From positions 10,610,001 through 10,674,000 of the forward strand of contig CM073321.1 of assembly GCA_037043015.1 (NCBI GenBank): DNA of 64,000 nt. The letters run 5' to 3'. A model generated the notes under the pieces. It saw only the letters and a list, made by a program, of their open reading frames with translations, searched no databases and had not been told where the DNA came from. Within the stretch, counting starts at the first letter, position 1. Every line of letters begins with the position of its first letter. This DNA comes from Bryum argenteum. Lineage: Eukaryota; Streptophyta; Bryopsida; Bryales; Bryaceae. Both the position numbers and the translations under genes were made by a program. Shown one piece after another: positions 19,336-62,731 of the stretch.

Positions 19336-22300
19336 ATGGCTTCTTTGGAAGGTGAGAGTGTTAGAGTGCTTGAAAGGTTCAATGGCACCAACTTCAACTT
19401 GTGGAAGTTCAAGATGAACTTGGCACTTTCTTCCATGGACTTGTGGGAGATTGTTGAAGGCACGGAGGAGGCTCCACCATCCGAAGCAAGTGAGAAGGAC
19501 AAGAAGGACTACCAAAAGAACGTGCGCAAGGCGATGTCCATGATTGGGCTCAACTTGGTGGATGCGCAACTTGCGCACATCAAGAGTTGCAAGGGTCCGG
19601 CGGAAGAATGGAGCGTGCTTTGTAACATCCACGAGATAAGAAGCTTGTCCAACATACTCTATTTGAGGCGCAAGTTCTTCACAATCAAGATGGAGGAAGG
19701 GGCGGACTTGTTGGAACACATCAACAAAAATCAAGACACTTGCGGATCAACTCGCATGCTTGGATGTGCCCATGAGGGAGGATGACATTGTCATGACATT
19801 ACTTGATAGTTTGCCACCTTCATTTGAGAGTTTGATCACGGCATTGGAGACTTTAAAACTTGCTGACCTTAAATGAAGTTTGTTGTATCAAGGTTGATGC
19901 ATAAAGTGTCTAAGAGGAAGGAGAAGGGTGCTTCAAGTGGTGACGTAGCGTTGGTGGCGGCCCAAAACAAAGGGAGGATGCAAAATGGCCCAAGAATGTG
20001 CTACAATTGTGGCAAACCGGACCACATTGCAAGGTATTTCTTTCGAAACAACAAGAAAGAGAAGGAGAGTGCCAATGTTGCAAGCAACAACGACAACGAG
20101 GCGGATTATACGTTTCTAAGTGCCGTTGTTGCAAGCAAAGAGGAGATGGAAGTGGAGCATGCCTTTGCAATCAATGATGAAGATGACAAGACCATGGCGA
20201 AGTGGATCATGGATTCGGGAGCAACCAAGCACATGTCACCCCATAGGGCATCGTTCCAAACATATGAGGTAATATCACCACCACAAAATGTGCACTTGGG
20301 AGATGATAGCATTGTGCATGCGGTTGGAGTTGGCACCATTGTTGAGGAGGTGATGGTGATGGCACTGAAGCACAAGATCAACATGAAGGAGGTGCTCCAC
20401 ATCCCCAAGTTCAAGAGGAACTTGATTTCCGTGGTAAAACTTGCTCTCAACGGTTTAAAAGTGGAGTTTGATGATGATGCATGCATTGTGAGAGATGTTA
20501 ATAGAAAGGTGATTGCTAGATTACCAAGAGTAAGGAGCTTGTATGAAATGCCCTTCTCCATGCATGAAATGGCCAATGTAGCACACCAAACACCCCAATT
20601 AGCCCTTTATGAGCTATGGTATAGACGCCTCGGGCATTTGAATGTGAAGAGTCTCAAGGTGCTTCAAAGCATGGTGAATGGCATGCAAATCAAGGATGGA
20701 GCATCAAATTCGGCGGTTTGTGAGGGGTGCTTCAAAGGCAAGCTCTCAAGGACTCCATTTCCAAGTGGGGGAGGTCAGCGTGCAAGCAAGCCTTTGGAGT
20801 TAGTCCACTCGGATGTGTGTGGTCCATTTAAGACCATTTCCATGGGCGGTTGCTTGTACTTTGTCACTTTCATGGATGATTTCTCTAAGAAGGTGTGAGT
20901 GTATGTGTTGAAGTCCAAGGGAGAGGTGTTTGCCAAGTTTGTGGAGTTCAAGGCCCTTGTGGAGAAGCAATCGGAGCACAAGATCAAGGCATTTCGGTCC
21001 GACAATGGAGGGGAGTTCACTTCCAAGGCCTTTGAACGCTTCTTGCAAGCACATGGCATTGAGAGACAACTATCAGCACCATACACACCACAACAAAATG
21101 GAGTGGCGGAGAGAGCAAATCGCACCATTGTGGAGATGGCAAGGAGCAAGCATGCTACATCACCAGAACCTCAACAAGAACCTTTGGGCGGAAGCGGTGG
21201 TTACAGCGGTGTACACACGCAATAGGTGTCCAACTAGTGCACTTGTTGGTAAGACACCCGAAGAGGCATGGAGTGGTAAGAAGCCTTTTGTGACACACAT
21301 GCGCGTGTTTGGGTGTGTTGCTTATGCAAAGGTGCCAGATAAAAGAGGACTAAACTTGATGCAAAGGGCACAAAGTATGTGTTTCTTGGTTATTGTGAAG
21401 GGACCAAGGCTTATAAGTTGATGTGTTTGGAGACCAAGAAGATACTGAAGTGTCGTGATGTGGTATTTGTGTAGGATGCTATTTGTGGAGATGCAAATGT
21501 GGAGATGCATCCAAGTGGGAGCTTGGAGCCACCTACGGTGATTTCGGTGGATACACCTCCAATTTCAAGGCCCGTTGTACAAGAGGCACAAGTTGGAGAG
21601 GAGTTTAAAGATGTGCAAAATCCACAAGAGAAAGAAGAGGAAGAGGTAGTGGAAGAAAAGCTAGGTCCACACGAGGAGATTGATGAAGGGCAACGTGCAC
21701 AAGGCTCAAGGTATCCAAGAAGGGAGAGGAGGCCGTCGGGTGAGTGGTGGTTGAATCACGTTCTTCCACTAACGAGGTAGAACGTGCAAATGTGGCTTCT
21801 TTTTATGATCCTTTGAGTTTGGGTGATGCTTTGCAAAGTGTGGATGCAAGCAAGTGGGCGTTGGCCATGCAAGAGGAGTATACATCTCTAATGGCCAATG
21901 GCACATGGGAGCTGGCTCCATTGCCAAAAGGCCGCAAGAGTGTTAGTTGCAAGTGGGTGTTTAGGACCAAGAGGGATGCACAAGGCAACGTGGTGCGCTA
22001 CAAGGCACGGTTGGTGGCGAGGGGCTTCTCTCAAGTGGAGGTGTGGATTTCCATGAGACCTTTGCACCCGTAGCAAAGTTTACCACCATTCGTTGCATAT
22101 TGGCGATTTGGGCAACCATGGACTTGGAGATTCACCAAATGGATGTCAAGACCGCATTTTTGAATGGTGAGTTGGAGGTGGACATCTAGATGGACCAGCT
22201 CCTTGGTTTTGTGGAGGAGGGCACTCAACACCTTGTTTGCAAGCTCAAGAAGTCGTTGTATGGGCTCAAGCAATCACCAAGGGCGTGGTACCATAGGATT

Positions 22301-25226: not shown

Positions 25227-27020
25227 AGGGTACAAGTGGACTCTCCAGCACGTTCTCGGCCTCTTTGTCACAGCCCCTTAGACCCAACAGAAACCAATCC
25301 GGTCACCGGCTCCAGCCCAGTAGACGAGAATCAGGTCACAGTGTGTGACGTCACAGTCTATGTTCACCGAATGATTGTTGAATGTTTAGGCCGATATGAC
25401 AATGACGACGTAGTTCTGCATGATGAGGAAACAATGTCCCCATCACATTCAGAGTTACCTGCAAGTGAACTGGAGGGAGACATGAACTACCCACAAGCAA
25501 ACATGAACATGGATGGCAAGGGAGAAGTAGATGACATGACGAATTTGTTTGAGCAGTCAACAAAGCCGTTGTTTGAAGGATCTCGGCACAGTACATTGGT
25601 AGCCACCCTCCTTATACAGAACTGCTTTACAGTGTTTGGTGCGACAAACAGCTTTAGAAATGAGATGTGGAAGTTGTTGAGGGAGCTCCTGCCATGTCCA
25701 AACTCTCTACCAACATCCCAATACCTAGCTATGAAATACATTCAACGAATGGGAGTGAGCTATGTCTCCATTCACGCATGCCAAAACGGGTGTTGCCTAT
25801 TCAGGAAGAAACTGCAAGATGCAAAAGTCTGTCCTAAATGCAACACTTCGAGGTATGTTCACAATTCTTCCACTCGCCCGGTGAAGGTGCTCCGCCACTT
25901 TCCGCTTATTCCTTGGCTGTTACGAATGTTTCGCTGCAAACGTCTAGCTGAGCTAAACAAATGGCATGCAACAAGGGAGAAAACTGATGAGAAAGTGGAG
26001 TGCGTACCGGACTCCAAGGCATGGAAACACATAAACAAGTTGTACCCAGAGTTTGCATCATCAGAACGCAACATTCGATTTGGTTTGGCATTAGATAGTA
26101 TTAATCCTTTCTCGAACCAATCGTTGAGTCAATCTACGTGGCCCATACTACTGCTCAACTACAAACTCCCCCCCCCTGGCTTGTTACAAAGCAATTCTTC
26201 ATCATGCTAGCCTTGTTAATTCCTGGCAAAGAAAGTGTGACATCTGAAAATATAGACGTCTACATGGTCCTACCAATAGAGGAGTTGCAAATACTATGGG
26301 ATGGTGTTGATGCCGTAGATGTCTCTGCTTCTGAGAATAGAAGGCACTTTCGTATGTTTGGAATGTTAATATGGTGTATACATGATTTTCCTGCATATGG
26401 CTTAGCCTCAGGGCAAGTAACAAAAGGTTACAAGGGCTGCCCAGAATGTGGACCACACGTCACTACAAGAAGATCAGCCGCCCTCGGGAAGAACATCTAC
26501 TTAGGACATTGGAGGTTTTTGAGATTGAACCATCCATATCAGCGAATGAAGCGAGCATTCGATGGCCACGAAGAACAGCGTCCCCCCCTACGAAACTTGT
26601 CAGGCCGGGATATTATGCGATTTGCACTTCAACGACGCGGATGGCAACTTCAGTCGTCTCCAACAACAAATGAGGGTGAAATTGATCCAGTCCATGATAT
26701 AGGGGTGAAGCGCTTATCGGCCCTGTATGGCCTTCCATGCTGGAAGGTACGTACTTTATCTCCGTACATTACATTCCTATGCATGGAGGTACACATTGTG
26801 ATGGTGTTAACGTTTCTACTAATGATCACTAATTCGGTCCCTCCGCTTCTGCAGTTCCTGATGATTCGGCATGTTTTAGATGTCATGCACTGTGAGAAAA
26901 ACCTATGCAAGAACATATTCAAAACAATATGGGGATTGAAAGACTCGCTGAAAGTCCGTCTGGATCTAACAGAGGTGATCATACGACCAGAGTTGCATCC
27001 GATACCTAGAAAGAAGCCGG
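25227..27020 (+). pseudogene. tnp2: TNP2 transposase, N-terminal and central part
   Basis: The frame opens after an acceptor (CCTTGTAG). It carries the TNP2 features CQNGCCLFRKK, CPKCNTSRY, HFPLIPWLLRMF, the catalytic-region string GLALDSINPF, and after a frameshift LVTKQFFIMLALLIPGK, IDVYMVLPIEELQILWDG and CPECG. The frameshift falls in a run of nine C (26168-26176). A 108-bp intron (26747-26854, AAG^GTACGT to TTCTGCAG) keeps frame into HVLDVMHCEKNLCKNI. The gene is cut at 27020 by the nested element and resumes at 37103 in the same frame. TNP2 is the DDE transposase of plant CACTA elements. Confidence 0.9.
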
Positions 27021-27048
27021 AACACGTAATTTGTTATAATGGGAATAT
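27021..27048 (+). repeat. Left terminal inverted repeat
   Basis: Begins AACACGTAATT. It matches the reverse complement of 37075-37102 except at two positions. Confidence 0.88.
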
Positions 27049-27289
27049 ATACTTAATTTGGTAATTAGGGAGACTTCCATTTAGATCGATTCTGACCTGA
27101 TTAGTTACCAAATCACCAGGTTTTTGCTGATAATGATGAATTTTCTCAATATAAAAGACAATCATAGAAAGAAATTCATAATGCAAGCTAAGAAATATGC
27201 TCTCCCAAGAGAAAATTTTATTGATATGAAAGCACAAATACAATTTATTGGTGTAATTGTAGACCTCCAACAGGTAGGCATTATATTAT

Positions 27290-27823
27290 CTACCAATTAC
27301 GACGTGGCGGAGAGGAGGTATCACCACAAGAATCTTTCTTAGTGAATACAGGGTCCTCACTACGTGTGTATTTAGAGAAGGCATGTTTGTTCATCTCTAT
27401 AAGTGCACTACTTCTACGATGTTTCAGTGCACGTCTCCGTAATAGACGGTGAGTCTCAGACGAAAATCGTGTTGGATGAACGCGAGTGTTTGCCCCAAGA
27501 GATAAGGAGCAATGAGCCACAGTATTTGGCAAGAAACTATTTAGCTCAAATTGAGCTAAATAGGCATGGCCATCGACGACGGAGTTGCGTAATACAGCTT
27601 CACCTTGGGGTGCCGCTGCAACCGCGGTCATCACAGCGATTCGATCATGGCAGGTTGCAATAATTGGTTGAATCTGAATAGGAGGACCGTCTACTACACC
27701 GTCAACGTCATTATCCATGTCCTCCTTTGTGTAATCTACAGCCGACGCGTCGTCCGGAGCACAATAGATCAACTGTCCCCGCATTCGCAAACAAGCCTGA
27801 CCTCGTTTTAGGTCCATGACCAT
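27290..27823 (-). CDS. Unrecognised 177-codon frame near the left end of the 10-kb element
   Basis: An open minus-strand frame rich in Arg, Asp and Ala, with an HRLLRRRALKHRRSS basic stretch. It spans one of the palindromes, which argues that part of it is structural DNA rather than coding. No domain recognised. It could be an exon of an element gene or chance. Confidence 0.25.
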   Translation of the reverse strand: MVMDLKRGQACLRMRGQLIYCAPDDASAVDYTKEDMDNDVDGVVDGPPIQIQPIIATCHDRIAVMTAVAAAPQGEAVLRNSVVDGHAYLAQFELNSFLPNTVAHCSLSLGANTRVHPTRFSSETHRLLRRRALKHRRSSALIEMNKHAFSKYTRSEDPVFTKKDSCGDTSSPPRRNW

Positions 27824-28167
27824 TTAGCTCGAGTCGAGCTAAATGGGCTTGACCTACCACATTGCAGTATGCCCATTTAGCTCGAGTCGAGCTAAATGGT
27901 CACGGACCTAAAACGAGCAGTAAGCCCATTTAGCTCGACTCGAGCTAAATGGGCCTGACTATTGTTTGAGGTCCGTGACCATTTAGCTCGACTCGAGCTG
28001 AATGGGCTTGACTTGCTACAGTGCAGTAAGCCCATTTAGCTCGACTCGAGCTAATTGGTCACGGACCTCATACGAGGTCAGGCCCATTTAGCTCGAGTCG
28101 AGCTAAATGGACTTGCCCTAAATCAGAGCAGTAAGCCCATTTAGCTCGAGTCGAGCTAAATGGGCTT
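27537..28167. repeat. Array of eight odd-length palindromes
   Basis: The outlying palindrome 27537-27563 has 13-bp arms (CTATTTAGCTCAA) around one base. Seven more follow at 27820-27846, 27873-27899, 27924-27954, 27979-28005, 28032-28058, 28084-28110 and 28133-28167. All share ATTTAGCTCGA, one central base (G or C), and TCGAGCTAAAT. Arms reach 15 bp in the one at 27924 and 17 bp in the last; two have mismatches. The spacers form a second level of inversion (GGTCCATGACC and GGTCACGGACC), so larger foldbacks are possible. Likely transposase-binding or hairpin-forming subterminal DNA, by inference. Confidence 0.93.
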
Positions 28168-28209
28168 AGGTGGTCCTGGAGAATTAAATAATTTAATGAA
28201 GTTAATTGG

Positions 28210-28289
28210 GCATCGAGCTAAATGGGCATCGAGCTAAATGAGCATTGAGCTAAATGGGCATTGAGCTAAATGAGCATCGAGCTAAATGA
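28210..28289 (+). repeat. Five direct half-palindrome repeats, 16-bp period
   Basis: GCATCGAGCTAAATGG-type units (variants with TTGAGC and ATGA) repeat five times in one direction. They are the right half of the palindrome unit. Confidence 0.93.
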
Positions 28290-29460
28290 GCTCAAAGTTG
28301 AAAATGATCGCATTTCAACAGATAAACACAAATTTCGAAGCGAAAAACACAAATTGGAAGACCTCGGTTACTCCGCGAGCAACATTCCATAACATTGTGC
28401 CATGCAATGTACAAAATAAGCTTTGAAAATGCAAACTCAATCCAAAACCTGAAACTCGAGAATGAGCAACTTACAATGAAGAAGCGGCAGCGATGCGTGA
28501 AGCAGGCGGAGAGCACGTTCGCAGCAAAGCCGCTGCAAAGGCGCAACAAAGGTGCTGGGGAACAAGACGACGATCAGGCGCTGAGAAGGAAGACGAGAGC
28601 AGCAGGTGCAGGGAGAGCAAGTGGAGAGCAGGTTCGTGGGAGCTCAGCAAGGGGAGGGCGCGGAAAAGAGTGCTGATTGGGCGCGAAGAAGAGTGCACAG
28701 GCGACGCGGGAGAGCTCGAGCGGAAGAACGTCGACGCGGGAGAGCTTGAGCGGAAGTGCTGGGCGGGGGAAGAGTGCACAGGCGGAGAGGGAGACGCGCA
28801 GAGGAAGACGTGGGAGAGCTGGAGCGGAAGAACGTTACGCGGGAGAGCTCAAGCGGAAGTGCTGGCCGAGGGAAGCATGCGCCGATTCGGGGGCCCTGTC
28901 CGCCGCCTTTTGGTTGGTGACCGACCTGCCCGGGCTACCCGAACTATGGCGGCCTCCTTGGGCTGCCCGGACTGCCCGGGTTGATACTTTTTTTTTCAAT
29001 TTTTTAAATTTTTATTGAAAAATTGAAAGAAAAACATCCTACACTTGTTTTTAGAAGAATATTGTGGGATTGGAATACTTACATGTACGGAAGTTATACA
29101 TTTGATTTTTAGATTCCATCTGTAACGTTTCATGCAAGAATACGTTTAGCGGTACTTAAGTCCTAAACTTCCCACGGATAGATATTAGATAGAAACTCCG
29201 GTCCCTTTGTAAAGGGCCGATGTGAATAAAGTGATTGTTTGTTATGCCAATGACTCACTGTCCTATCGGTATAGTACACATGTACCCGTATAACTGGACG
29301 TTTCTTCCGTACAACATCTTCTGGTTACAAACTAAAAACTACATTAACGCCTACAGATTTGCACATTGCAGTACAATAAGGCAGTTCTAAAAATTATAGA
29401 ATTATTATATGATAATAAATATTATATATGATTCTTAATTCTATTCATAGAGTAATACTA
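28290..29460. other. GC-rich segment with degenerate repeats, then AT-rich spacer
   Basis: Positions 28480-28985 are GC-rich with recurring GGGAGAGCT-GAGCGGAAG blocks about 50-55 bp apart. The overlapping open frames (Arg/Glu/Gly-rich) are better explained by this repetition than by a protein. A dispersed-repeat copy (see 5.07 kb) lies near 29186-29230. No credible gene. Confidence 0.5.
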
Positions 29461-29477
29461 CACTCCATAAAAGCCGC

Positions 29478-29690
29478 ACTAGTTGGGGCCCCAGTTGTTG
29501 TAGTTGGGGTCCCGAGCCGCATTAGTTGGGGCCCCAGCTATAGTAGTTGGGGTCCCCAGTTGCACTAGTTGGGGCTCCAGCTGTAGTAGTTGGGGTCCCC
29601 AGCTGCACTAGTTGGGGCCCCAGCTATAGTAGTTGGGGTCCCCAGCTGCACTAGTTGGGGCCCCAGCTGTAGTAGTTGAAACCCCAGGTA
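29478..29690. repeat. 43-bp minisatellite with GGGGCCCC cores
   Basis: About five units of ACTAGTTGGGGCCCCAGCTG plus TAGTAGTTGGGGTCCCCAGC. Each unit is a pair of half-units of about 21 bp, and each half carries a self-complementary GGGGCCCC or GGGGTCCCC core. Confidence 0.92.
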
Positions 29691-29914
29691 TACTTTTAAT
29701 GTATACATTTAGATTTTTAAAATTTATTATAGGCTTTTATATTTTCCATTTTTAAAACACTTTTAATTTGAAAAGCAAAGTAAAAGCTTGCTCAAGTAAC
29801 AATATAATGTTAAGACTGTATATTATATTTATTATAATATATATAGATATTTTGTGCGTTAAACTTTATTGCCTTATATTTCATTAGTCTATAATTATCC
29901 ACTTTATTGTAAAG

Positions 29915-31468
29915 ATGGATGAGCTTGTAGTACATGAGGCAAAAAAACCTAGAATTGCACAAGTGCCTGCCCTTAACTTTATGAAATCGCAAAATGTTTT
30001 AGAGTTAATATATGATTCTAAAACGAGAGGTTGTAAAGCTCCACAACACTCTCAAAAATTGTTCGATTGTTTGTATGTTCTTTCATGCAAAAAAAATTTA
30101 GAGTGCGAGTATTTCCATAAAATATTTATAGACCCAGCATCTAGAGTAGAATTGCCTGTTCTTGCGAAACAACAATATTATGTTCATTATTGCCACAAAA
30201 TCTGTGGTGCTTGCCTTGAAAAGACATCACGTTGTCCCATACGTGAAGATTTGTTAAACATTGATTTCCGAAAGCACACAAAATATATCTTTGATACATC
30301 GATCACTAAAGATATTGAAATAACTTCTTTACAAGATTTTCCTGATACTTTTGAACGATTACAAATCTTTTTACAAAAAAAGAGTGAAGAAAACAAAAAG
30401 AAGATGCCGCTTCCAAACAAGATACTTCAATGTGCATTGATGCAAAAAGGATATCTTGAATTATTTATTCTCAAGAAATTTGATATAAAAACTGACATGA
30501 GAATTGTTATTAGCTACACAAGCATTCCAGCAAATAAAAGTAAAAAACAAACACCATATTGGGAGAATATCAAATTTGAAAATGCATGGCAAGAAGTTTA
30601 TGAAGACAATCATCTTATACCAACAACATCTATTGCTTCATTATTATTAGATGGTAATAAAATAATAAATGATAAAATATTAAATCCAAGCGATTTATCA
30701 CTGAATCATGTTTTATTTATTTATATACTTGAAATATGGAATAATGATCTGGTTGCATATCAAAGCACATTAGCTGAAGCTGATATATATTATGAAACTG
30801 CTCCGTACAAGGGGAGGTCCAATCAAACAGACCCAAAAAGGGGTTATTATAAGTCTGTGGGCCATGGGTACATAGCTCATGGACGATTAGATTCAAGAGA
30901 AGATGTGGTACCATATGATCGGAAAAACATGCCTCAAAGCAAAAAACGTGCTTTTAGACGTATAGGAGATTCTGTTGCAACGAAGATGTGGAAGGCATTG
31001 GATTTATTTGGTCATCCAGTTAAAGAATTTTTTACAAATCAATTCCAAGCTATAAATTCTATATCAATTGGTTTAGATTCATATCTAACACAAGTGCATC
31101 AATTACATATGTCTAAGAATTCTTTTATTAAGCCACACATAGACATATTGGATTTTGATTGCTCTTTTATATGTTGATTCAATGAGGGACATCCGAAAGG
31201 AGGTGAACTTGGAATTTTTCAACATTGTATGAAATTTGAAAATAGTAACGGAGCTGGTATATTTGTATTTTGCAAATATATTAGCCATGGAACATTACGA
31301 TTTGATTCCAATTCATTATCAGACATTGAATTTAAGATTGGTTGTGCTCTGGTTAATAAAGAAGCAATTTGTACGAGAGTTGAAAATCAACTTCAAAGTA
31401 AAAATCCTATCTCTTGGAAAGTTACTAAGTATACAAATCTTATTGATAATGAAGATTGTGAAAGTTAG
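29915..31468 (+). pseudogene. RING/U-box-like plus 2-oxoglutarate/Fe(II) oxygenase-like protein
   Basis: A strongly AT-rich single frame of 518 codons starts at ATG 29915. A TGA at 31175-31177 interrupts it where Trp fits. Residues of about 85-110 read VHYCHKICGACLEKTSRCPIRE, like the second half of a RING or U-box finger. The C-terminus has KPHIDILDFD (an HxD metal motif), then GGELGIF and YISHGTLRF (distal His and a following basic residue). This is the HxD...H layout of double-stranded beta-helix oxygenases. TET/JBP-type and related oxygenases occur in some fungal and algal DNA transposons, but assignment to that group is a guess. Base composition differs sharply from the GC-rich stretch upstream. 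It sits inside the 10-kb element and may be cargo. Confidence 0.55.
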
Positions 31469-31469
31469 G

Positions 31470-32208
31470 TCACAAATGAAAATGAGAAAATGCTCTAGAA
31501 ATCTTTAACATGCCAAAAAAACCCTAAATATTTCATTTCAAGTTTTGAGGTAGTTTCCACCATTGCAAGACAATTATTTGAGCTAAGAGGGTTGTCTTAA
31601 ATTTTGTAATCTGTACTCTTGTATTTTATATAAAATACACATATTTCTTCTTCTTACATTTTTATTTGTTTATTTATTTACTTATTTATTTATATATATT
31701 TTTTCTATTTTAAAAAGATACCTCTGTTGAATGTGCCTTCTTCTGAGGCGCCATTAGCAGAAACATAGCCTACTTGCAGAGTTCGAGTCTTTGTTTTGCT
31801 TCGTACGGAACATGGCTTTCCAGCTTTTAAAAGGGTAACCAGTCAATAGTCAATGTTTCACTCAACATGTTTTGGAGCAGACTATTGTGCATGAAAGTAA
31901 AGTTCAGCGATAAGCGGTGCAATATTCTAAAATATTCTGCATAGGGGTTCGAATGATATAAACCCTTGCAGGACACACATGCTCTTCATTTCAGCAATCT
32001 ATGCAAATACGTGTCCACATAGGATAATTACAAAATGTATTTAAATGGCTGAGGTATGGATCTAGATTGATAGAAGTAATAGCGTTGGAATGTTTGGTGA
32101 AAGAAACATGTACCTCATTTGTACATTACAGCATATGAAGGGCTTTGGATACACCTCAAAACTTTCGCCTTGAACTTAATTTGTACTTAATATGTAAATG
32201 AAGCTTAA
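31470..32208. other. AT-rich spacer inside the 10-kb element
   Basis: No coding frame. The short TTAT/TTTA runs and two GGTTCGA-like sequences are not convincing RNA-gene promoters. Confidence 0.5.
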
Positions 32209-34965
32209 CCCCTAAACGTCCCTAGTGTCAAAAAACGACATTTTGGATGAAGGGTAGAAACTTTGAAGAGTCATAATTTTTTCACTATACACTCTGTTTT
32301 TGACAAAATCACTTAGGTTAGCTCACAAATCAAGTCTAGTTTATGTGGTAAAAATTTCAGACTCATAAAATAAAGTTTGAATAAATGGCATGGATATTAG
32401 TGAAGGCAGCTTTTGTTTTTGAATTTTCAAACATTTGGCATGTTTTACCATTGCAAGCCAATTATGTGAAATCTAAAATAGTTTTTCATGAATTTTTTTT
32501 ATAGGTTTCATATTTAAATGCATCCCAACAAATTTGTAATTGGAAGTTTTTTGCTCTAGATAACTTTGGTATTGGCTTTGCAATGATGTTTCTACGATAA
32601 AAAAAGTAAAAAAAATGGATCATTTCTGAAGAGTTAGATCTCCTTCATCCACCGTTAGATTTTGACTTTATTTTTTGGGATGGATTCCAATTATAGTCTA
32701 TTTTTAGTGGTAGAAACCTTGATCTAATCGAGGATATATTGAAAAAAAGGCATGGATTTGAGTGCGAGGGGTCTAGTTTTGGACTATTTTTCCTTTGTAA
32801 AATTTTTGGCAGTTTTTACGACTACAAGGCTACTATTTGAGCCAAGATTTTCTTTTGATGAATTTTTTTGGTACAAGAGTGTCTTTGAGATAAAGATGAA
32901 CAACTTTGTAGTTGTTGATTTTTTTATTGCAAATTTCATGTTGGTAGTATTTTCACTTCAAAGTGGAAATGATGGTATTTTGTAGCCTGTTTTGCGCACT
33001 AATATGTTATGATCTCGCAATCTATAAGGTTCCATGAGTCAAGTTTTGGTCCACATCATCTACTACAAGTGTATTACAAGTTTGTACGGTTGAGATCTGA
33101 ATAGCTTATCTTTATTTTTATCTATATCACTTTTTTTGAAAATGAGTTTTTGGCTAAAAATACCCCAAGGACGTTTAGGGGTTAAAAAAATCGAATTAAA
33201 TATAAAAATGGTGAAGTGGGCTTCTAACAAAGAATGAATGAACATCACCTTACCATCTACCTCCTTCATGAAATTCAATTCTTACAACAAGGGTGCTGCC
33301 GAACGCAACAAATTAATATGTGGACCCCTCGAAAATCAATCTTAAAAGGCCACCTGTGACCCCTACCCAACAGCTTATGTGGGGCTACGGGCTCTCGAAA
33401 ATAGATTTTGAAAGGCCACATGTGACCCCTTTTAGATTTGGAGGCCCCCATGTCCAGCACTCCAGCACTTCTCCCAATTTGATGAAAATTAAGAGTACCC
33501 AGCCGTTTGGCCGCCCATGAGGGCAAGACCCATGCCTCGGCATGATTACTTGAGCTCCTCATCGACCAATAAGGTAGCAGAGTCCCAAGAACCCTCCTTC
33601 TCCATGATCACACCCCAAGATGTGCTCTCTATGTGCCATTGACACGTGGCTCTCTCCACTCCTTTCCCTTCTCTTTAAGCTCAAGTATAGCAATTCAAAG
33701 TCCTTCAATCCGGTGAAATTCCTTTTCCGGATTGTTTACACCTATGACTACACACTATGAACTCTCGAGATTTTGGGAATTTCGAGCCTATGGGCACTTA
33801 CATGTAGTGGTATATAGATAGTATTCAACAAAAAAACAACACAAAAACAATAAATTAAGTCTTTTGTGAGTTGTGAGAAATAACGTGCAAATCAACACTT
33901 AAGAAAATTTCCAACAACATGCTCCTTTGCACAACACACTTCTATATGATAAAAGAATGCTCCTTAGACATTTTAAAATTAATATCCCAAGTTTCATAAC
34001 AAACCTACTAAAATTAATTGTTAATATGAGTCCTTTTTGCTATTTTGTCTGATTGGGACGATTCCGGACCTTGAAGAAAAAAGAATCATTGGGAAAGCAG
34101 AATGCTTGAGATACATGTGGCAATTGATTGCAACACATACTACATGTGTATGTGTACTCTTATTTCATATCAATAACACCAAAATGCGATTAAAGAATCC
34201 AAGATTTAAGGTCAAAAACATAGGAGCGAGGCAAATTTCTCATGGGACAGTCCTTTATGACACCCCAAGTAGACCACTACCCACATAATTTCACTATAAT
34301 TCTAGTCTCCATTTGATACTTTATCACAGCTCTATAAATTCAAACTCTTCAAAGTCCTGCGTACTTAATTTAGTATGAAATAAAATTAAATCATTCAAGA
34401 CTACATCAATCTAAGGTACACGACGAGAACAATTTGTGTTCCCTCTAAACATTTAATAAGTTAGTATAAGTTTCATGTAATTTAATCATTTTCTATTTTT
34501 CTCCCTATACTCTATTTAAGGTAATCGTGTAAACTATGGTTCAAATAACAAATGACACTATCTCTTTAACAACTAGATTGAAGTTTCTTTTTCTTGTTGT
34601 GTAGTCGGATGAATTGTGGTAAAAAATGTTTGCAACAATGGTAAAAGTATTATTATTAAAGTTATTGATTCTTAAACTATCAAACGTTAATTTAGTAATG
34701 GTCTAGGGACTAGAGTTTTTCATTACGGTTTTATGGTTTGATGTAAACTTGATTAATATCCAATAGAATAGAAGAGGTGTCTTCACTAAACTGCATTCCA
34801 TTAATTCATACTTTATTGCAAAGTTTAAAATACAAACTAGACTTGATTTGGAGCAAAACCCAAGTGATTTCATCCAAAACGGACCTCGGATGAAGAAGAT
34901 ATGGCTATTCAAAGTTCTGCCTTCTATCCAAAATGTCGTTTTTTGACATTCGGCGCATTTAGGGG
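32209..34965. mobile_element. TTAA-flanked non-autonomous element, 2.76 kb
   Basis: The left end CCCCTAAACGTCC follows TTAA (32205-32208). The right end, in reverse, reads CCCCTAAATGCGCC and is followed by TTAA (34966-34969). The arms align imperfectly over about 140 bp, sharing GTCAAAAAACGACATTTTGG and AAATCAAGTCTAGTTT. A further copy of the end (GGACGTTTAGGGG then TTAA) lies at 33169-33185 in the interior, so a 973-bp element 32209-33181 is an alternative reading. TTAA duplication is typical of piggyBac and Kolobok elements. No transposase frame is present. Confidence 0.65.
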
Positions 34966-35113
34966 TTAACATTCTAGTGCCCAATATGAGATTATTTTGT
35001 TGCTTTGAGTTTGGGTTATCCGTTTTCCTCGCAAATCCGGTTTTTTTTATTACAATTGTGTAATTTCTATTTTTAGAAATATTCCGAATTTCTCGGTGAC
35101 TTAACTTAAGCAG

Positions 35114-36652
35114 ATGTACAAGGCGTCGGGTTTTAAATTTAAGTCACATTTCATGATCACATCACATGCTGTGACTGGCATGATTGCGCATGGGCATAGC
35201 GATGTCCGGTATGCTCATTATGGGCTCGATATTTATCCAAGTGATTGCAATCACAGTCTTGGATCAATATTAAAGCTTTTACGAGATCTACAAGGTGTTC
35301 CGATTTCGTATTCAAAATCATTATTCGCAAATTCGGGGTCGTTGCCTGTATTTGAAGCTGTATTGTTTGGAAAAAAAGAGTGTTTAAACTCTCTTCTACC
35401 TGAAAGTGAAGTTTCTGGGGTGGCGGAGCCTCTACCTCCTGTCTTGCATGTGCAACTGGACAACGCAGCTTCTGACAACAAGATTAGATTTATGTTTTGC
35501 TTTTGGTCTCTTCTGGTACACATGGATGTGTTTCGTGAAGTATATGTCAATTTCTTGTTAGTTGGACATACTCACGAAGATATTGACGCCTTCTTTGGAC
35601 GTTGGAGCATGAATCTCAAAGAGAATGACTTTCTCACACTTCCTCAGTTGATAAAGTCATTTATGGACGCAGAGTCTTTGCCGGTCATTCCTCATTTGAT
35701 AGAGGAAATACCTGACTTCAAGGGTTATATCAAAGACTACATTGGTTCGAGAGAGGAAATTCTAGTTGGGCATTCAGAGGGTCGGCAAATCAAGTTTTAC
35801 AAGTATGACAATGGATGGCCCATGATGCAGTATAAGATGTTATGCACAGACATCGAGTGGTTACCTTCTACTAATGGAGGTATAAAATTGTAGAAAGAGG
35901 ACAGAAGTATAGGAAAACCATTGTTACCTACAGGTGACATGAAACCTTTGGCGCCCATTCCCATGAAGAACGGTGATGACATTGTAAAAGACATTGGAGG
36001 GTTTATTAAGATGTGGGAGACTTCAAATGCGGAGGACATATCTGGAGAATTTGGTCGGCGTCATGAATTTGTTATTCGCTATTGGCAAGCTGTGAAGCTT
36101 GCATTGGTTGAGCCTATAGAAGTGTCTTTATTTTTGAAGAACGGGTGATGGCCTTGAACTCGAGTACCTGCGACACGAGAATTCTTAAATACTGGCGAAT
36201 TGCGAGAGGAATATGGGCGTGATCCGCACTTTATCGGACGGTTGTGTGATAGACCAAGGGAGTCGTTTCGAGTTGGTCGAGATGTTTTTGCTGGATATTT
36301 TGTAGCTCTACGTCTAGCCGATGGGGATGCTCGTCCTTTCCGGATTGCTAGAGCTTTAACTGATTTTGATGTTGATCACAACTATCCAGGCTGTATTCAA
36401 ATGCAATATTTTCAACCTGCATCAAAAAATAGTGTTGTTCAGGAAACCTAGGCTGGTTGGGATACAAATAAGACTTTCAAATGGAAAGTTGAAGACACTC
36501 ACATTCCGGAATGGCTTCATGCTGATGCTATTTTTACGTCGTGGAAATCAAGTGCAAAACTTGGCTCTTGGCGTCGGATTATTTCATTATCGGAGCATCA
36601 AATCGACATCATGAAACAAAGTATTGAGCGGTTCGACGGTGGAGAGGAGTAG
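35114..36652 (+). pseudogene. DUF7869-like protein, candidate transposase of the 10-kb element
   Basis: The frame begins after an acceptor (TTAAGCAG). It has HGHSDVRYAHYGLDIYPSD, then HVQLDNAASDNKIRFMF, then FLLVGHTHEDIDAFFGRW. The DN..DNK and GHTHEDID strings are those I associate with the DUF7869 family found in many plant, oomycete and animal genomes; conserved Asp/Glu suggest an RNase H-like nuclease. An in-frame TAG (35891-35893), a TGA near 36146 and frame changes interrupt the C-terminal half, which continues with DVFAGYFVALRLADGD and FDVDHNYPG to a stop at 36652. The usual N-terminal part is missing; the TTAA element ends 150 bp upstream and may have displaced it. A copy of the 3' half is at 52.3-53.2 kb. 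Confidence 0.65.
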
Positions 36653-36679
36653 CCTGACATCCCTAGTTTATTTGGGCAT

Positions 36680-36708
36680 GCCAATTTAGCTCTAGTCGAG
36701 CTAAATGA
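36680..36708. repeat. Subterminal palindrome near the right end of the 10-kb element
   Basis: ATTTAGCTC-TAG-TCGAGCTAAAT repeats the left-end palindrome unit with one mismatch, about 400 bp from the right terminus. A half-site (TTTAGCTCGA) follows near 37022. Confidence 0.85.
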
Positions 36709-37074
36709 CCTCAGTGCAATTTGAGCTATCAATTTATCGTGTCGTGACTTTTTGCCAATAGATTCATCTTAGAAATGCAGGTAGAAGTCCTACCTCTTAT
36801 CTTTGCTGGCGGTAGATATCTGTAGTTAAGTATTGGTACAGTTGTTATGCCTTAAAGTCAACAATTCAAGTGTTTGTAATTTCTCGGAGTTGATTGTCGA
36901 TTCCCAGTTTAATTGAGTTTATCATTTTATTGTGCTCTTTTTGCAAATTGCTGTCAGGATGCATTTTGCGTTTGCTACTTTCATCATCATTTGTACTCAG
37001 TTTAGCCCTACAACACGCGCGTTTAGCTCGATACATATGTTGGAATTTAGGTCGATTGGTTTTTGAAAATTTGA

Positions 37075-37102
37075 ATATTCTCATTATAACGAATTACGTG
37101 TT
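37075..37102 (-). repeat. Right terminal inverted repeat
   Basis: Ends AATTACGTGTT directly before the second CCGG. It pairs with 27021-27048. Confidence 0.88.
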
Positions 37103-38776
37103 CCGGGGTCTCTTGCTCTACCGGCAGCTCCATATGTTCTTTCGAAGAAGGAAAAAGAAATATTCGTAGGAATACTACGGGGTTTGAAATCGCCCACCAA
37201 CTACGTCGGGCATCTAGCAAAGAGGATAACTACAGTTGGAGACTTGAAGGGGTTGAAATCCCACGACTACCATGTATTGATGTAGCAAATTTTACCCCTC
37301 TGCATCCGGACGTTGATTCGGAAGGACGTGCGTGTAGCCATTTTAACAATATGTCGGGTATTTCATCAATTGTGTATGAAGGCTATTGATCTAACAAGTA
37401 TAAAGGGGTTGCTGGAGGAGACGTCTATAGCAATGTGCTTGCTTGAGAAGGTTTTCCCCCCTTCATTCTTTGATGTCATGTTCCACCTTCCAATTCACCT
37501 TGTTCAACAATTGGATATTTGTGGACCAGTACACACACGATGGATGTACCCAGTGGAGAGGTATCTCAAAATTTTTAAAGGCTATGTTCGACAACGTAAC
37601 CGCCCGAAGGGGTCGATGGCAGCGGGGTATGTGATGGACAAAACTCTTGGCTTCTGCACCGAATACATGCAGGACTGCACCTTAACGCAACGTCGGATTT
37701 GGGATGATATGGAAGACCCAAGAATGTACGATGAGATACTGGAAGGCAACGGCCGCCGCAGGATATTAACAGATGAGCTGCGTCAATGGATTCACGAATT
37801 CGTCCTAAGCAACGCCGATATACTAGAAATCTACAGAGAGTAAGCAATGAACATCCCACCTTCTGTTGCGTGATACGCACCGCTGCTTTTGCATAAGTCA
37901 TGTTCTAATTAACCCGATTCATGCTTGCAATGTAGGCAATATACCACAGCAATGGCCGCCAAAGAACGTGCAAGGGGGGAGTGGCAAAGACGGAACCGTC
38001 GCCAGAATTCCAAGGTCTCGGATTATTTGCAAGCGCAAGCGTTTCACAAATAGTTTGTTGCAGAAATTAAGTGCAATTTGGAGAGAGGACATGACACACC
38101 AGAAGATGTCAAAGCTTTGGTTTTCCCTCCGTCGTTGGAGGCAAGGTCATATCGATCCATGTACGCTTCCGTGAATCATATTCGTGTCCGCACAGCAGAA
38201 GCTGATCTACTCACATGGGACAGTGGTGTCTCAGCAACATTTTCACAAGACTGTCGGGCAAGTTTGCAAGATTGAAACATCAGAAATGCAAACTTGGAGT
38301 ACATTGGATGGGTGGAGGAGATCATAGCAGTCGACTTTGGGAGGTACGAACTTGTTGTACTGTATTGTAATTGGGTAGAGGCAAATACATCTGGTGCCCG
38401 AGCGACAGTGAAGCGCGACGAGTACGGATTCACGCTTATCGAGTTCGGGAGATTGGTCCCGTTTTCGGCTGACTCATTTGCATTTCCCCGACATGTTCTA
38501 CAGATCTATACTGTCGACGTAGTTGATAATCCAGGGTGGAAGATCGTGCTTCGAAGAATACCACGCAGTGTTCGAGTTGCCTCAAGCACTTATGATCTCC
38601 CTGAGCTACAATGTCTTCAGATGCAATGTGTTGACGCACATCCACGCCTACTACCAAATATACATGTGGATGATGTTACACAAAGCGCTCCAGTACTTCA
38701 AGGGTGTCGGATGATGAGTACAAATGAAGTGAATATGGAGATGCACATTCAGGATCCAGAAGACCCTGACATTTGA
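37103..38776 (+). pseudogene. tnp2: TNP2 C-terminal part with DUF4218 and DUF4216
   Basis: TNP2 resumes with APYVLSKKEKE and HDYHVLM. A TAG at 37283-37285 follows where the family has Gln. DUF4218 shows FPPSFFDVMFHLPIHLVQQLDICGPVHTRWMYPVERYL and GYVRQRNRPKGSMA. An intron after 37839 (GA^GTAAGC to AATGTAG) keeps frame into a basic linker. Its TAG (near 38053) and TGA (near 38273, where CGA fits) are single-base lesions. DUF4216 follows: GWVEEIIAVDFGRYELVVLYCNW, then FPRHVLQIYTVD and GWKIVLRR, with a stop at 38776. The order TNP2-DUF4218-DUF4216 is standard for plant CACTA elements. Confidence 0.88.
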
Positions 38777-52329: not shown

Positions 52330-53640
52330 AGGTCAGCAATTTAAGTTTTTCAAGCATGATAATAGATGGCTTATGATGAAATATAAGATGTTATGTACAG
52401 ATGAAATCTGGCTACTTTCTAATACTGGTGGTATAAAATTGTAGAAGGAGGACCCTCATACCGGGAAACCATTATTACCTCTAGGTGAGATGAAACCTTT
52501 GGCGACCAATCCAATGCCTCACTGTGATGACATTGTAAAAGGCGTAGGTGGGTCTATTAAGATGTAAGAGACTTCATGTATGGAAGACATATCTGGAGAA
52601 TTTTATCGACGACATGATTTTGTTATTCGCTATTGGCGAGTTGTGAAGCATGCGTTGGTGGAGCCTATGGAAGTGTCTCCAGCCTTGAAAAATGGATGTT
52701 GGCCTATAACTTGAGTTCCTGTGATTCAAGAATTCCTAAACACCGAGAAATTGCAGGAGAAATTTGGGCGTGATCTACATTTCATTGACCGCATATGTTC
52801 TAGACCGAGACCATTGTTTTGAGTAGGTGGGGATGTCTTCGTTGGGTCTTTTGTAGCCCTACGTCCTGCAGACGGGGATGCTTGTCCTTTCTTGGTTGCA
52901 AGGGTCTTACAGACTTTGATGTGGATCACAACTACCGAAGCGGTATTCAAATCCAGTATTTTCAACCTACAGCAAGAAACCATGTTGTTCAAGAAACCTA
53001 TGCTTGTTGGGATACAAAGAAATTTTGTTAGTAGAAAGTTAATGACTCTCACAACCCGGAATGGCTTAATGCTGGTGGTATTTTACACCATGGAAATCAA
53101 ATGCAAAAACCGGCTCTACCCGACCAATTATTTCCATGTCATACGTTTAGATCGAGATCATCAAAGAGAGTATTCTACGGTTTGAGACTGCAAAGGAGTA
53201 GCGTGACAGTCCTAGTTTGGTTTGGCATGCCAAATTTAGCTCGAGTTTAGTTAAATGGGTTGACTACAATTTTAGCTTTCCATGTATAGTTTCACCCATG
53301 ATATTGTCTTACTACATATAGGAATATTTTTTTTCTTTCTTTAATACTAGTTGATTTCAGCAATTAGGTCTCCATTCAATTGTGTTGTTTCTAATACATA
53401 CCTACAAACTGATTGGATTTATTGAGTGTCTTTGAAGGATTTTCATTTTAAGCAACATTGTCGTTTTAATTTGTAGTTTTTGCAAACTTTGATCGTAAAT
53501 GTATTCTATTGGTTCCAACAATACCTTTTGTATGCACTTTAGCTCTATCTCATGCGTTTTTTGCTCGGTTCACATGTTGGACTTTAGGAGGGTTGAGTTT
53601 TTGAGAATCTAGATATTTCCAGTTTAACGGAATGCGTGTT
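52330..53640 (+). mobile_element. 5'-truncated relative of the 10-kb element
   Basis: The sequence parallels 35790-37102: the 3' part of the GHTHEDID gene (to TAG 53199-53201), a degenerate subterminal palindrome (TTTAGCTCGAGTTTAGTTAAAT near 53237), and the terminal segment with ACATGTTGGACTTTAGGAGG, ending GCGTGTT at 53640. No left end or GHTHEDID core is present. Confidence 0.75.
52336..53201 (+). pseudogene. 3' fragment of a DUF7869-like gene
   Basis: It can be followed alongside 35780-36652: MMKYKMLCTDEIWLLSN, GGIKL, then TAG (52442-52444) at exactly the position of the TAG in the first copy, KPLLPLGEMKPLA, ISGEFYRRHDFVIRYWR and GDVFVGSFVALRPADGDACPF. Further stops and a frameshift follow. 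Confidence 0.75.
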
Positions 53641-57729: not shown

Positions 57730-60700
57730 CTAAGTGGAAGACTCAATCTCCTGAAGTGTTCTCATGCCGGCGGCGCGGGTGAGCTGACGGTGTTTGTAAG
57801 CAGACAAAGCTTTGGTGAGCATGTCGGAAATGTTCCGGGCCAATTCGATCTTTTGCACCTTCACTTGGTCGCTTTCAATCAAGTCCTGCATATAGCCGAA
57901 GAGTGTCGGGCTGATGTGCTTGACTCGATCTGCTTTGATGAAGCCCGCGCCGACTTGAGCAACGGCAACGGCATTGTCCTCATAGATTGTTGTTGCTCCT
58001 GGAGTTTGCTGGAACCTGCACATTTCAGAAATAGAACTCACCATGGTGCGGAGCCACACGGCTTCGCGTGCCGCCTCGTGAAGCGCTATGAGTTCGGCGT
58101 GGTTTGTTGAAGTGGCCGTCACGGTCTGCTTCACTGAGCGCCACGAGATGGGAGCTCCGCACTTGATGAAGATGTAGCCAGTCTGGGACTTGCCGCTTGT
58201 CTCGTCGGTTTTGTAACCTGCATCTGCATAGCCGGATATGGTCGAGTCGGCGGTCTTCGTGAAATGAAGGCCTAAGTCTTCCATGCCGAGGAGGTACTTG
58301 AGCAGATGCTTGATGGCGTTCCAGTGGCGTTGCGCTGGTTTCGTGCTATGTCTGGCAAGGAGGCTCGTTGCGAAGGCTATGTCGAGGCGTGTGTGTGTGG
58401 CCAGGTACAAGAGAGCGCCGACCGCGGCGAGGTACTTGGTCTTATCGACCTCGTCCTCCTCCTCCTTGCAAGGTCGGTAGGGGTCGTCGCCGCTCTTGCT
58501 TCGACCTATCATTGGGGCCGATACGGAGTTCGATTCCGCCATGTTGAAGCTTTTGAGAAGCTTCTTCGTGTAGGTCTCCTGGTGTAAGAGGATGCTGCCG
58601 TCGGGGCGGTGGTGAACCTGGAGTCCTAAACAGAACGTTGTCCGCCCGAGTAGCTTCATCTCGAAGCGGGCTACGAGGAGTTGCTCAACTTTCTGGCACA
58701 AGTCTGGTGAGCCAACAAGGTTGATGTCATCGACATATACAGCTAAAATGACAAAATCACCCTGTTTGGCTCGGGCGAAGATGCAAGAGAGTGCCTGGTT
58801 GCAGGTGAAACCCTTTTCAGTTAGAAAACGGCGGAGGTGATGGTACCATGCCCTCCCGGCTTGTTTAAGCCCGTACAACGCCTTCAATAAGCGAAGGCCG
58901 TTGTGCCTTCCTACAAGGGGTGTTGGAGTTGTGTCCAGGAATTGCGGTGGGGGCTTGATGAATATCTCCTCATCAAGCTCGCCGTAGACGTAGGCGGTCA
59001 CCACATCAAGTAGCTTTGTAGTGAGAGTCATCTGCACAGCTAAGGGAAGGAGCAAACGGAAGGAGGAACAGTCCATGACCGGGGAGTAAGTCTGGTCAAA
59101 GTCCACTCCCGGTCTTTGGTTAAAGCCTTGGGCGACACATCTTATTTTGTAGCGTGTCACTTGCCCGTGCTCATTTCGTTTCTTTGTGAATACTAGCTTA
59201 AAGCCAATGGGTTTGATCTTAAGATCCGTGCGCAAAGAACCGAATACCTCGCGCTTGCGAAGTGAGTGATACTCGGCTTCAAGCGCGAGTTTCCATTGTG
59301 GCCAATCTGGCCGCTTCTGTGCTTGCTCAAGAGTTATGGGATCATTATCGAGAGATGACAATTGGGTTACAAACGCTTCAACTTCTAGTTCTATGGGTAC
59401 TTGAACTCCGGGAGTGTGCTCCACTTCCGAGTTCCGATGGGATCGGGTGTAGTGGCCTTGGTTTAATCCCATCACCCCAACTGGGTGATCGGACCCTATC
59501 ATGAGGTTCAACTCCTCAGGTTGGGAAAAATGTAGCTCTGAGGGTGACGTGGGTTCTACTTGGGATGAAGGACCGGCTGAATTCTCAAGGGAGCCACTGC
59601 AATTCACAATCTTGGCTCGTTTTGCTGTGGGCGCCTTAGGCGCCTTAGGTGTTTTAGGCTGCTTTAGAGTTTTGGGGCTCTTAGGACCTGAGGTTTTGGT
59701 TTCCTTGATCGGTTTCATTCCGGGTGCTAGTTTTGGATTTCCAGCGCCCGGGATGGGGTTACGGAGGATTCTGGGGCCGGAGTCAAATCCGTCCGGCACC
59801 CGACTAGCGATACTTTGAAGCTGGAGCAATTTCTGGACTTCGGTCTCAGAAATTGCGGTTCTAGGGTCTGGGTTCATTGTGAAATTCTGGGTGGCACGGA
59901 AGAGAAGAGGTTTGTTTTCTCGGTTGGGAACCGAGGGGAAGACATGTTCTATAAAACGGCAATTCTCAAACTGGGCCTTGTGAAGGGCTCCGGTTTTGGG
60001 ATCTAAGTAGCGAATGATACTTGGGCTGTCAAAGCCCACATACACACCTTCAATTCGATGAACGCTAATTGTTTTGACTTGAGGTTCGGGTGCCGGTATG
60101 AATACTTGGCACCCGAAGATACGCAAGTGTCTTACATTTGGGGTCCTTCCCGAGATCAGTTCTAAGGGCGTTTGAGAATTGATTAGTGTTGGGCGAAACC
60201 TAAGCAACGTGGCGGCATGCAGAACTGCATGTCCCCACATGGTTGCGGGAAGATTAGCATGGATAAGCAAGGGTCTAGCAACCAACTAGATCTTCTTAAT
60301 GTAAGCTTCAGCAAGACTATTCTGTGCGTGTTCGTACGGGACCGCATATGCAAGTGCGATTCTGGACGCCGTGCAATAGTCTTCAAACGAGTGTGAGCGG
60401 AATTCCATGGCGTTATCCATTCTCAAAGTTTTTATTGGTTTATCAGGAAAGTGTGCTCTAAACTTAATGAGCAAGGGTAAGAGTTTGGGAAACGCCATGT
60501 TACGAGTTGTCAACAATGACACCTCGGCGTGGCTACCAGAAGCATCTACTAAGACCAGAAAGTATGAGAACTGACTCGACTGAGGGTTGATCGGTCCACA
60601 GATGTCTCCGTGTAGACGCTCCAGCTGTTGTGGGAGTTCGGTGGGGAGCTTCCACTTTGCTGGGTGTTTGGAGTACTTGCCTTGGATGCAAGCAACACAG

Positions 60701-60759
60701 TCTGGCGCCTTGTCCGCATTACTTGTGCTCAACGGGTGACCTTCAAGGATCGGCAGCAT
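57730..60759 (-). pseudogene. pol: copia integrase, reverse transcriptase and RNase H, one nonsense codon
   Basis: Read from 60759 down. The pre-integrase CxxC (DCVACIQGKYSKHP) and integrase triad regions (HGDICGPI, RMDNAMEF, NSLAEAYIKKI) are followed by a TAG at 60288-60286 where copia integrases have Gln. The frame then runs 851 codons without interruption. It includes a GAG-Pol linker rich in Pro/Lys and a reverse transcriptase (KLVFTKKRNEHGQVTRYKIRC, then YVYGELDEEIFIKPPPQF, LYGLKQAGRAWY, YVDDINLVG). RNase H has SGYADAGYKTD and TSTNHAELIALHEA. It ends at TGCGAACGG next to the purine tract. Only the single TAG separates this from an intact module. Confidence 0.93.
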
Positions 60760-61243
60760 CCGGCGTGCCCGGGTGACCGAATCTCCGGTGCCAAAGTTGC
60801 GCCCAAGGCAACGCAGTGAAGTGGCACTCGAGTTGAGTTGAGGTTGGCACCTTCACGTGAAGTGAGTAGAGTCCTGTCATGGTTGCTCGTACTTCTATTG
60901 GTGCGCCCGTCTTGGGTTGGAGTTTTACCACCTCCGTGCCATCATTATCTTCCACCGAGGTGGAGATATGGATCCCGTTTTTGCGCAGGTCCCGGTAGCT
61001 GATCAGGCTCCGGGGTGCGTCAAGGGCATACATGGCCCGGTCACATACGAGAGGGAATCCCCCGGGCAATTGAATCATTGCCCTGCCCTCCCGGAACTTG
61101 AAGTTCCGGCTTCCGGCGATGGTGAGCACCTTGCACTCTTGCCAGGGTCCGCGCATACATGAGGACTCAAAGAAGACTGGACTCCTCAAAATTGTATGGG
61201 TAGATGCACTATCAAGCAGTGCAATATCCGGTTTTTGACACAA
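60743..61243 (-). pseudogene. copia protease and GAG-pre-integrase segment
   Basis: DIALLDSASTHTILRS holds the protease aspartate (D-S-A). ALWAQLWHRRFGHPG-type sequence is the pre-integrase His pair. The frame differs from gag upstream by +1 at an A5 run near 61231, and from integrase downstream by one base near 60770. Both look like single-base losses. Confidence 0.88.
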
Positions 61244-62555: not shown

Positions 62556-62731
62556 TTTTACTGTTGCGGCGGCGCAGTCTCTTACAGTAACGGCGGCTGA
62601 GCTTCTATTTAGATCTGGACTCTACCGCTAACTAGGCGTACAACATGCTGTCATCGTGAAATCATTCTGCAGAAACGGAAAGACTAGTCGGGAATGCGAA
62701 AAAGCTTAGCTCAGAAAAATCAAAAGGTGCA

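Follow-up and report, generated by a model that had tools for sequence, protein, structure and literature searches.

A probable Sola-type DNA transposon in the moss Bryum argenteum with a predicted DUF7869 transposase and a TET/JBP-like gene

What kind of mobile element occupies positions 27021-37102 of the window (the whole 64,000-nucleotide stretch of Bryum argenteum DNA analysed here, on contig C1), which of its genes moves it, and what else does it carry? A prediction made from the sequence alone had proposed a candidate new DNA transposon family, with a protein bearing the motif GHTHEDID as its transposase. Our reading, to which we give a probability of roughly three in four, is that of a DNA transposon moving by cut and paste, most probably a member of the Sola superfamily, that encodes both a DDD (three-aspartate) transposase of the DUF7869 type and a TET/JBP-like Fe(II) dioxygenase. 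The transposase part of the original prediction is upheld, its new-superfamily part is probably wrong, and the TET-like gene, the most surprising part, had been missed, as had the nested insertions and the loss of the N-terminal part of the transposase.

The element, its ends and its transposase

The element is a real transposon, as its target site and its copies confirm. It sits inside a CACTA-type transposase gene, with Pfam matches to Transposase_21 and DUF4218 on its two sides, and when the flanks are joined with one CCGG removed a single open tnp2 frame runs through the junction; this repair of the TNP2 frame had already been noticed, as had the 28-bp inverted ends (Table 1). Searches of the 259-Mb assembly (25 contigs, C1 being 44.1 Mb or 17% of it) with each end yielded the best 40 places each, of 142 and 301 candidates, from which 27 left and 30 right ends were read; a further left-end locus (L050) had no recognisable terminus. 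AACACG, or a sequence close to it, opens each end, and the adjoining outer bases differ among copies; hence the inverted repeat does not include the duplication. Pairing of left and right ends by strand and position within the same genome gave ten pairs, the window's own included. An identical 4-bp duplication flanks eight of these, different in each case (CCGG, AATG, TTTT, ATTA, ATTC, GTTA, GGTG and AATA), which at 1/256 per pair has a chance probability of about 2e-18; the other two, lacking a matching duplication, may be wrongly paired. A 150-bp derivative on contig C10 likewise has both ends and a GCTT duplication. Collecting copies by their ends, the check that the original prediction had proposed, has thus returned exact 4-bp duplications, and their differing sequences rule out CCGG as a fixed target site. 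The eight pairs with a duplication span 7.6 to 57 kb; therefore, the copies hold much extra DNA.

We predict that the DUF7869 protein is a DDD transposase composed of a helix-turn-helix (HTH) part and an RNase H catalytic core. The right end lies at most 1.5 kb downstream of the DUF7869 gene in 9 of 12 loci, including the window. The ratio of nonsynonymous to synonymous substitution rates (dN/dS) is 0.05-0.19 in four comparisons, one of them saturated, which points to purifying selection on the gene. The predicted fold contains an integrase-like RNase H core, for which fold matches were found, and structure prediction, the other check proposed at the outset, places in it three aspartates invariant in 58 sequences (numbered after the Physcomitrium relative): D421 just after β1, D543 just after β4 and D585 on the helix after β5. 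These three lines argue that the GHTHEDID protein is the transposase, in agreement with the earlier claim, and DUF7869, a domain of unknown function, would gain a role as a transposase core. Two results tell against this: no Foldseek match to the full transposase reached E<=0.001, and its VIA Z score is modest. A PDB sequence search with the transposase profile returned nothing usable, tblastn against plasmids no match, and a literature search for DUF7869 no hit. Named homologues come from Physcomitrium, Ceratodon (two proteins with KC19_VG locus tags) and, distantly, Mytilus (one protein). They make a bryophyte host likely, and a LEAFY SAM domain in the assembly (E 1.1e-28, against no hit in 14 control genomes) marks that host as a streptophyte, LEAFY not being known outside this group.

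The window's own gene is a remnant. Its Pfam match to DUF7869 (35105-35893, E 5.9e-41) is clear and the DN...DNK and GHTHEDID motifs are retained, but relative to a 957-residue relative it lacks approximately residues 1-176 and 194-440 (about 425 residues), and with them the HTH part and the first catalytic aspartate; it also carries further stops and frame changes. Other copies encode DUF7869 proteins of up to about 957 residues. Unable to supply a transposase itself, the window copy was moved in trans, for the same internal deletion recurs in a copy at another site that has its own, different duplication. A GHTHEDID gene without these termini, which the original prediction had named as evidence against it, does occur at C10:12.75 Mb, though only in the manner expected of a sister family: the transposase there is 41-51% identical, no right end of this kind belongs to it within the 3.3 kb read downstream, and the ends close to it belong only to the 150-bp derivative.

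By described traits, rather than by sequence, the transposon is most probably a member of the Sola superfamily, on account of its 4-bp duplications, DDD triad and variable terminal inverted repeats (TIRs), and of the occurrence of Sola in Physcomitrella. The available text of PMC10741241 gives Sola a DDD transposase, 4-bp target-site duplications, lengths of 2-9 kb and sometimes >15 kb, TIRs of 11-1124 bp and a presence in Physcomitrella, whose Sola1 is named in a table of PMC9033089. Giant Sola-1 elements appear among the giant transposons of Ectocarpus; in most of those families nested insertions occur and the transposase is often broken, according to the accessible part of PMC12477816. The duplications of the Bryum family, its predicted triad and its 28-bp TIRs agree with that description. 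As far as these sources go, it resembles Sola1 further in its moss host, in reaching >10 kb with nested insertions and in its trans-mobilised copies, and differs in that no captured TET-like gene is described for Sola, the comparison being one of descriptions only.

That descriptive basis, together with the lack of a DUF7869 hit in the literature search, is what would favor a new superfamily defined by DUF7869 and distinct from Sola, as first proposed. We consider this unlikely, given that the traits published for Sola in the available text of PMC10741241 and PMC9033089 include 4-bp duplications, a DDD transposase, large size and occurrence in Physcomitrella, and that giant Sola-1 elements are on record. 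Other superfamilies fit less well. The C2C...H(3-4)H motifs expected of CMC/CACTA and Chapaev are missing: just 42 residues separate D543 from D585, and no CxxC occurs in the consensus of that interval. Ginger was set aside for want of a Pfam retroviral-type integrase domain, DUF7869 being the sole significant domain in the two sequences P0008 and L071.

A second gene related to TET/JBP dioxygenases

TET enzymes oxidise methylated DNA in animals and fungi. In plants, TET/JBP enzymes have remained unidentified according to the available text of PMC6917789 (2019) and PMC11233409 (2024). The gene at 29915-31468 is likely TET/JBP-like, to judge from its predicted structure. A profile search with it recovered 13 proteins (sources ena, jgi and lgn), all annotated merely as "hypothetical protein"; the alignment, from which two short proteins of the 13 were dropped, has 12 rows. 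The relatives conserve SKNSxIKPHIDxxD...GGxFGxFQH...SHGTL...FKxGxALVNK, including the iron-binding HxD...H triad, with H236 and H286 invariant and D238 present in at least 90% of the 12 sequences. The triad has the same 50-residue spacing as H229, D231 and H279, which we take to be its counterparts in NgTET1. All 21 Foldseek matches of the dioxygenase model at E<=0.001 are CcTET, CMD1 or NgTET1, and VIA-align ranks CMD1 first (15.1, over 297 residues at 4.4 Å), followed by NgTET1 (13.8), TET2 (12.2) and CcTET (11.5) and, after a gap, AlkB (8.5). The Foldseek matches, the VIA-align scores and the triad spacing together point to a TET/JBP-type double-stranded β-helix, the fold being matched on a low-confidence model.

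The absence of a Pfam signal and the weakness of the model keep this assignment short of certain, and several observations weigh against it. The AlphaFold model of the best relative reaches only pLDDT 48 and pTM 0.56, against about 30 for the four others. The 50 Foldseek matches listed do not include human TET2. Pfam Tet_JBP does not match the window gene, the two relatives P0095 and P0096 or the intact copy described below, and a genome-wide scan with PF12851 gave 28 weak, sub-threshold hits, none at these genes. The residue that binds 2-oxoglutarate (2OG) is not clear-cut either; K302 or R316 may serve. Searches of Pfam, NCBIfam, PHROGs and PDB sequences with the dioxygenase or its relatives returned no usable family, and a RING-type zinc pattern was not found in the N-terminal part with one simple pattern. 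An improbable alternative leaves the transposon as described and makes its second gene some other 2OG-Fe(II) oxygenase, AlkB-like or prolyl-hydroxylase-like, acting for example on RNA or protein. The HxD...H and GGE/GGxF patterns are indeed common to many 2OG oxygenases, and the missing Tet_JBP match and low model confidence would suit it, as would the fact that AlkB and PHD2 chains match too; they do so more weakly than the TET and CMD1 chains. Separately, the weak PF12851 places (such as C3:15837933, C4:27022161 and C5:22549) could be other TET-like repeats or chance hits.

Spread of the TET-like unit and a proposed mechanism

The TET-like gene is cargo that spreads with transposons and is carried by a subset of copies. 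A genome search with it gave 103 rows (the best 100 of 127 candidates scored), from which 35 places were taken for a proximity test, the other 68 rows being pieces of the same loci or weaker matches. Contig C1 holds 27 of the 35 TET places and 114 of 146 transposase places, the latter being the best 146 of 1752 candidates scored genome-wide; C1 may be a repeat-rich sex chromosome. Three families of TET copies can be distinguished: one of the window type (window, C1:23.47 and C1:19.59), one of six loci sharing a truncation near 30981 (C1:18.13, with a full-length transposase, and five others), and one on C10, C4 and C2, 98% alike at the TET locus. The C10 member has an intact gene of 517 codons. 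The transposase downstream of it shares just 51% identity over residues 8-649 and 41% over 677-928 with that of the window family, whereas the TET unit, corresponding to 29480-31655, is 91% identical at the DNA level between the window and C10, which argues that the unit passed between two transposase lineages. More divergent relatives at 30-46% identity (for example C5:13488800, C1:24297476 and C1:33240835), some with open frames of 350-450 residues, appear by sequence to be further lineages of the gene in the same genome.

A same-strand transposase from that set of 146 lies within 12 kb downstream of 6 of the 35 TET places, the window included, against 0.42 expected from a random control that took guessed lengths for C2 and C5. 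The association has its limits, and these count against a TET-like gene at work in the transposon. The remaining 29 places have no such transposase within 12 kb. The expectation that every copy carries the gene failed: it is absent at its position in five of eight loci of the window transposase family, one of the five (C9:7.64) having been read only as a 5-kb piece. Among 12 TET loci read (L084-L095) only the C10 gene is open throughout. Selection is weak to moderate, with dN/dS of 0.24-0.77 over the whole gene (10 pairs from 5 loci, those with L088 including a frame-shifted stretch) and 0.49-1.32 over the first 150 codons; the ratio is lower after codon 150 in eight of the nine pairs with both values, and a separate comparison gave 0.34-0.61 for C-terminal and 0.75-1.20 for N-terminal pieces.

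These figures bear on a further explanation, in which the TET-like unit is a passenger that entered by its own mobility or by chance and brings its host element no benefit. Weak selection on the gene would fit a passenger, as would the unit's position beside two transposase lineages with unrelated flanks, the spread of the truncated copies and the locus at C1:27.91 Mb, where the nearest transposase of the set is on the opposite strand to the TET gene. We nevertheless find it doubtful: no inverted ends, whether at the unit edges or of the C10 element, were found in the DNA examined, the unit lies on the strand of the transposase and in a constant order with it at the four loci read through, the window among them, and the catalytic residues are conserved between relatives at 38-86% identity.

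If the gene does serve the transposon, the following mechanism can be proposed. The transposase would bind the ends and probably the subterminal palindromes, excise the element and insert it with a 4-bp stagger, a half of the scheme that is well supported by sequence. In the plant, the CpG-bearing palindromes would be methylated and silenced. The TET-like oxidase could oxidise 5-methylcytosine within the element itself, with most benefit at these palindromes, and with them demethylated or marked, a methylated copy might regain expression and transposase binding. We infer this demethylation half by analogy with the TET+ transposons of fungi, as presented in the available text of PMC12730594. 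More tentatively, and at odds well below even, Sola-type transposons may have introduced active TET/JBP enzymes into land plants and spread them there. Such an enzyme would be a selfish DNA demethylase, passing from one transposase lineage to another, opening the methylated ends of elements and perhaps putting oxidised or glyceryl-modified methylcytosine into plant DNA.

TET genes are already known from fungal DNA transposons of the KDZ, hAT7, IS3EU, PHISTA, EnSpm, ESTA, Plavaka and Helitron types (Kojima 2025, PMC12730594). As far as its text was available, these resemble the Bryum element in that a DNA transposon carries a TET/JBP-like gene common to several transposase lineages; they differ from it in that its host is a plant, its transposase is of the DUF7869, probably Sola, type and Pfam Tet_JBP does not match its dioxygenase. 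None of the words moss, bryophyte and Sola appears in the main text of that paper, and a literature search, with subscription papers mostly outside it, found in print no TET/JBP-like gene in a land plant or a Sola-like element. CMD1 of Chlamydomonas, an algal TET homologue, makes 5-glyceryl-methylcytosine (5gmC) from ascorbate; the dioxygenase here shares about 10% identity with it, is transposon-borne and is TET-like by predicted fold. If our reading is right, the disputed 5-hydroxymethylcytosine of plants would have an enzymatic source in a transposon-borne TET-like gene, of which an intact copy exists, and plants would be a second kingdom whose transposons have taken up this means of countering silencing.

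Other features of the element and the window

The array heading the TET-like cassette travels with the gene and is expanded in another copy. Two other copies keep the frame near the left end open as well, at 261 and 170 residues. Nested insertions fall within 32205-34974, where longer inverted arms (32205-32342 and 34834-34969) bound a wider nested region shared with the C1:23.47 copy. The second copy reported in the original prediction at 52.3-53.6 kb was found again, sharing the 3' part of the gene (a 77-78% match to the family over 52331-53257) and, at 53613-53640, a decayed right end; no left end for it was found in the window with up to 8 mismatches allowed.

Table 1. Coordinates in the window of the transposon, its parts and its older partial copy
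Feature	Position	Strand	Basis or remark
Left target-site duplication CCGG	27017..27020	.	compared with right copy and other loci
Left TIR, 28 bp	27021..27048	+	26/28 identical to right one; multi-copy
Open frame, 177 residues, near left end	27290..27823	-	possible second element protein; no Pfam match
Left subterminal palindrome array, ATTTAGCTCGA-TCGAGCTAAAT type	27795..28168	.	contains CpG; candidate transposase-binding sites
Array of palindromic GTTGGGGCCCC units	29481..29678	.	heads TET-like cassette
TET/JBP-like dioxygenase gene (probable), 517 codons	29915..31468	+	one in-frame stop at 31175-31177
Nested TTAA-flanked element, ~0.97 kb	32205..33185	.	inverted CCCCTAAACGTCC termini
DUF7869 transposase remnant (predicted)	35105..36652	+	Pfam; comparison with 957-residue relative
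Right subterminal palindrome	36679..36707	.	matches left array
Right TIR, 28 bp	37075..37102	-	
Right target-site duplication CCGG	37103..37106	.	
Older partial copy	52331..53640	+	3' part of transposase gene and decayed right end (22/28 identical)

Two copies elsewhere contain other frames near their left ends. In one without the TET gene (L073, C8:13.74 Mb), a minus-strand open frame of 212 residues about 1.3-2.0 kb from the left end resembles by eye a fragment of an FCP1/NLI-type phosphatase, an apparent gene capture. At C9:7641500-7646500 (L080), an open frame of 465 residues runs opposite to the element near the left repeats of a family copy. Outside the element, the window holds genes of Copia-type long terminal repeat retrotransposons (Pol_BBD, gag_pre-integrase, RVT_2 and gag) at 19873-20898 and 57730-62621.

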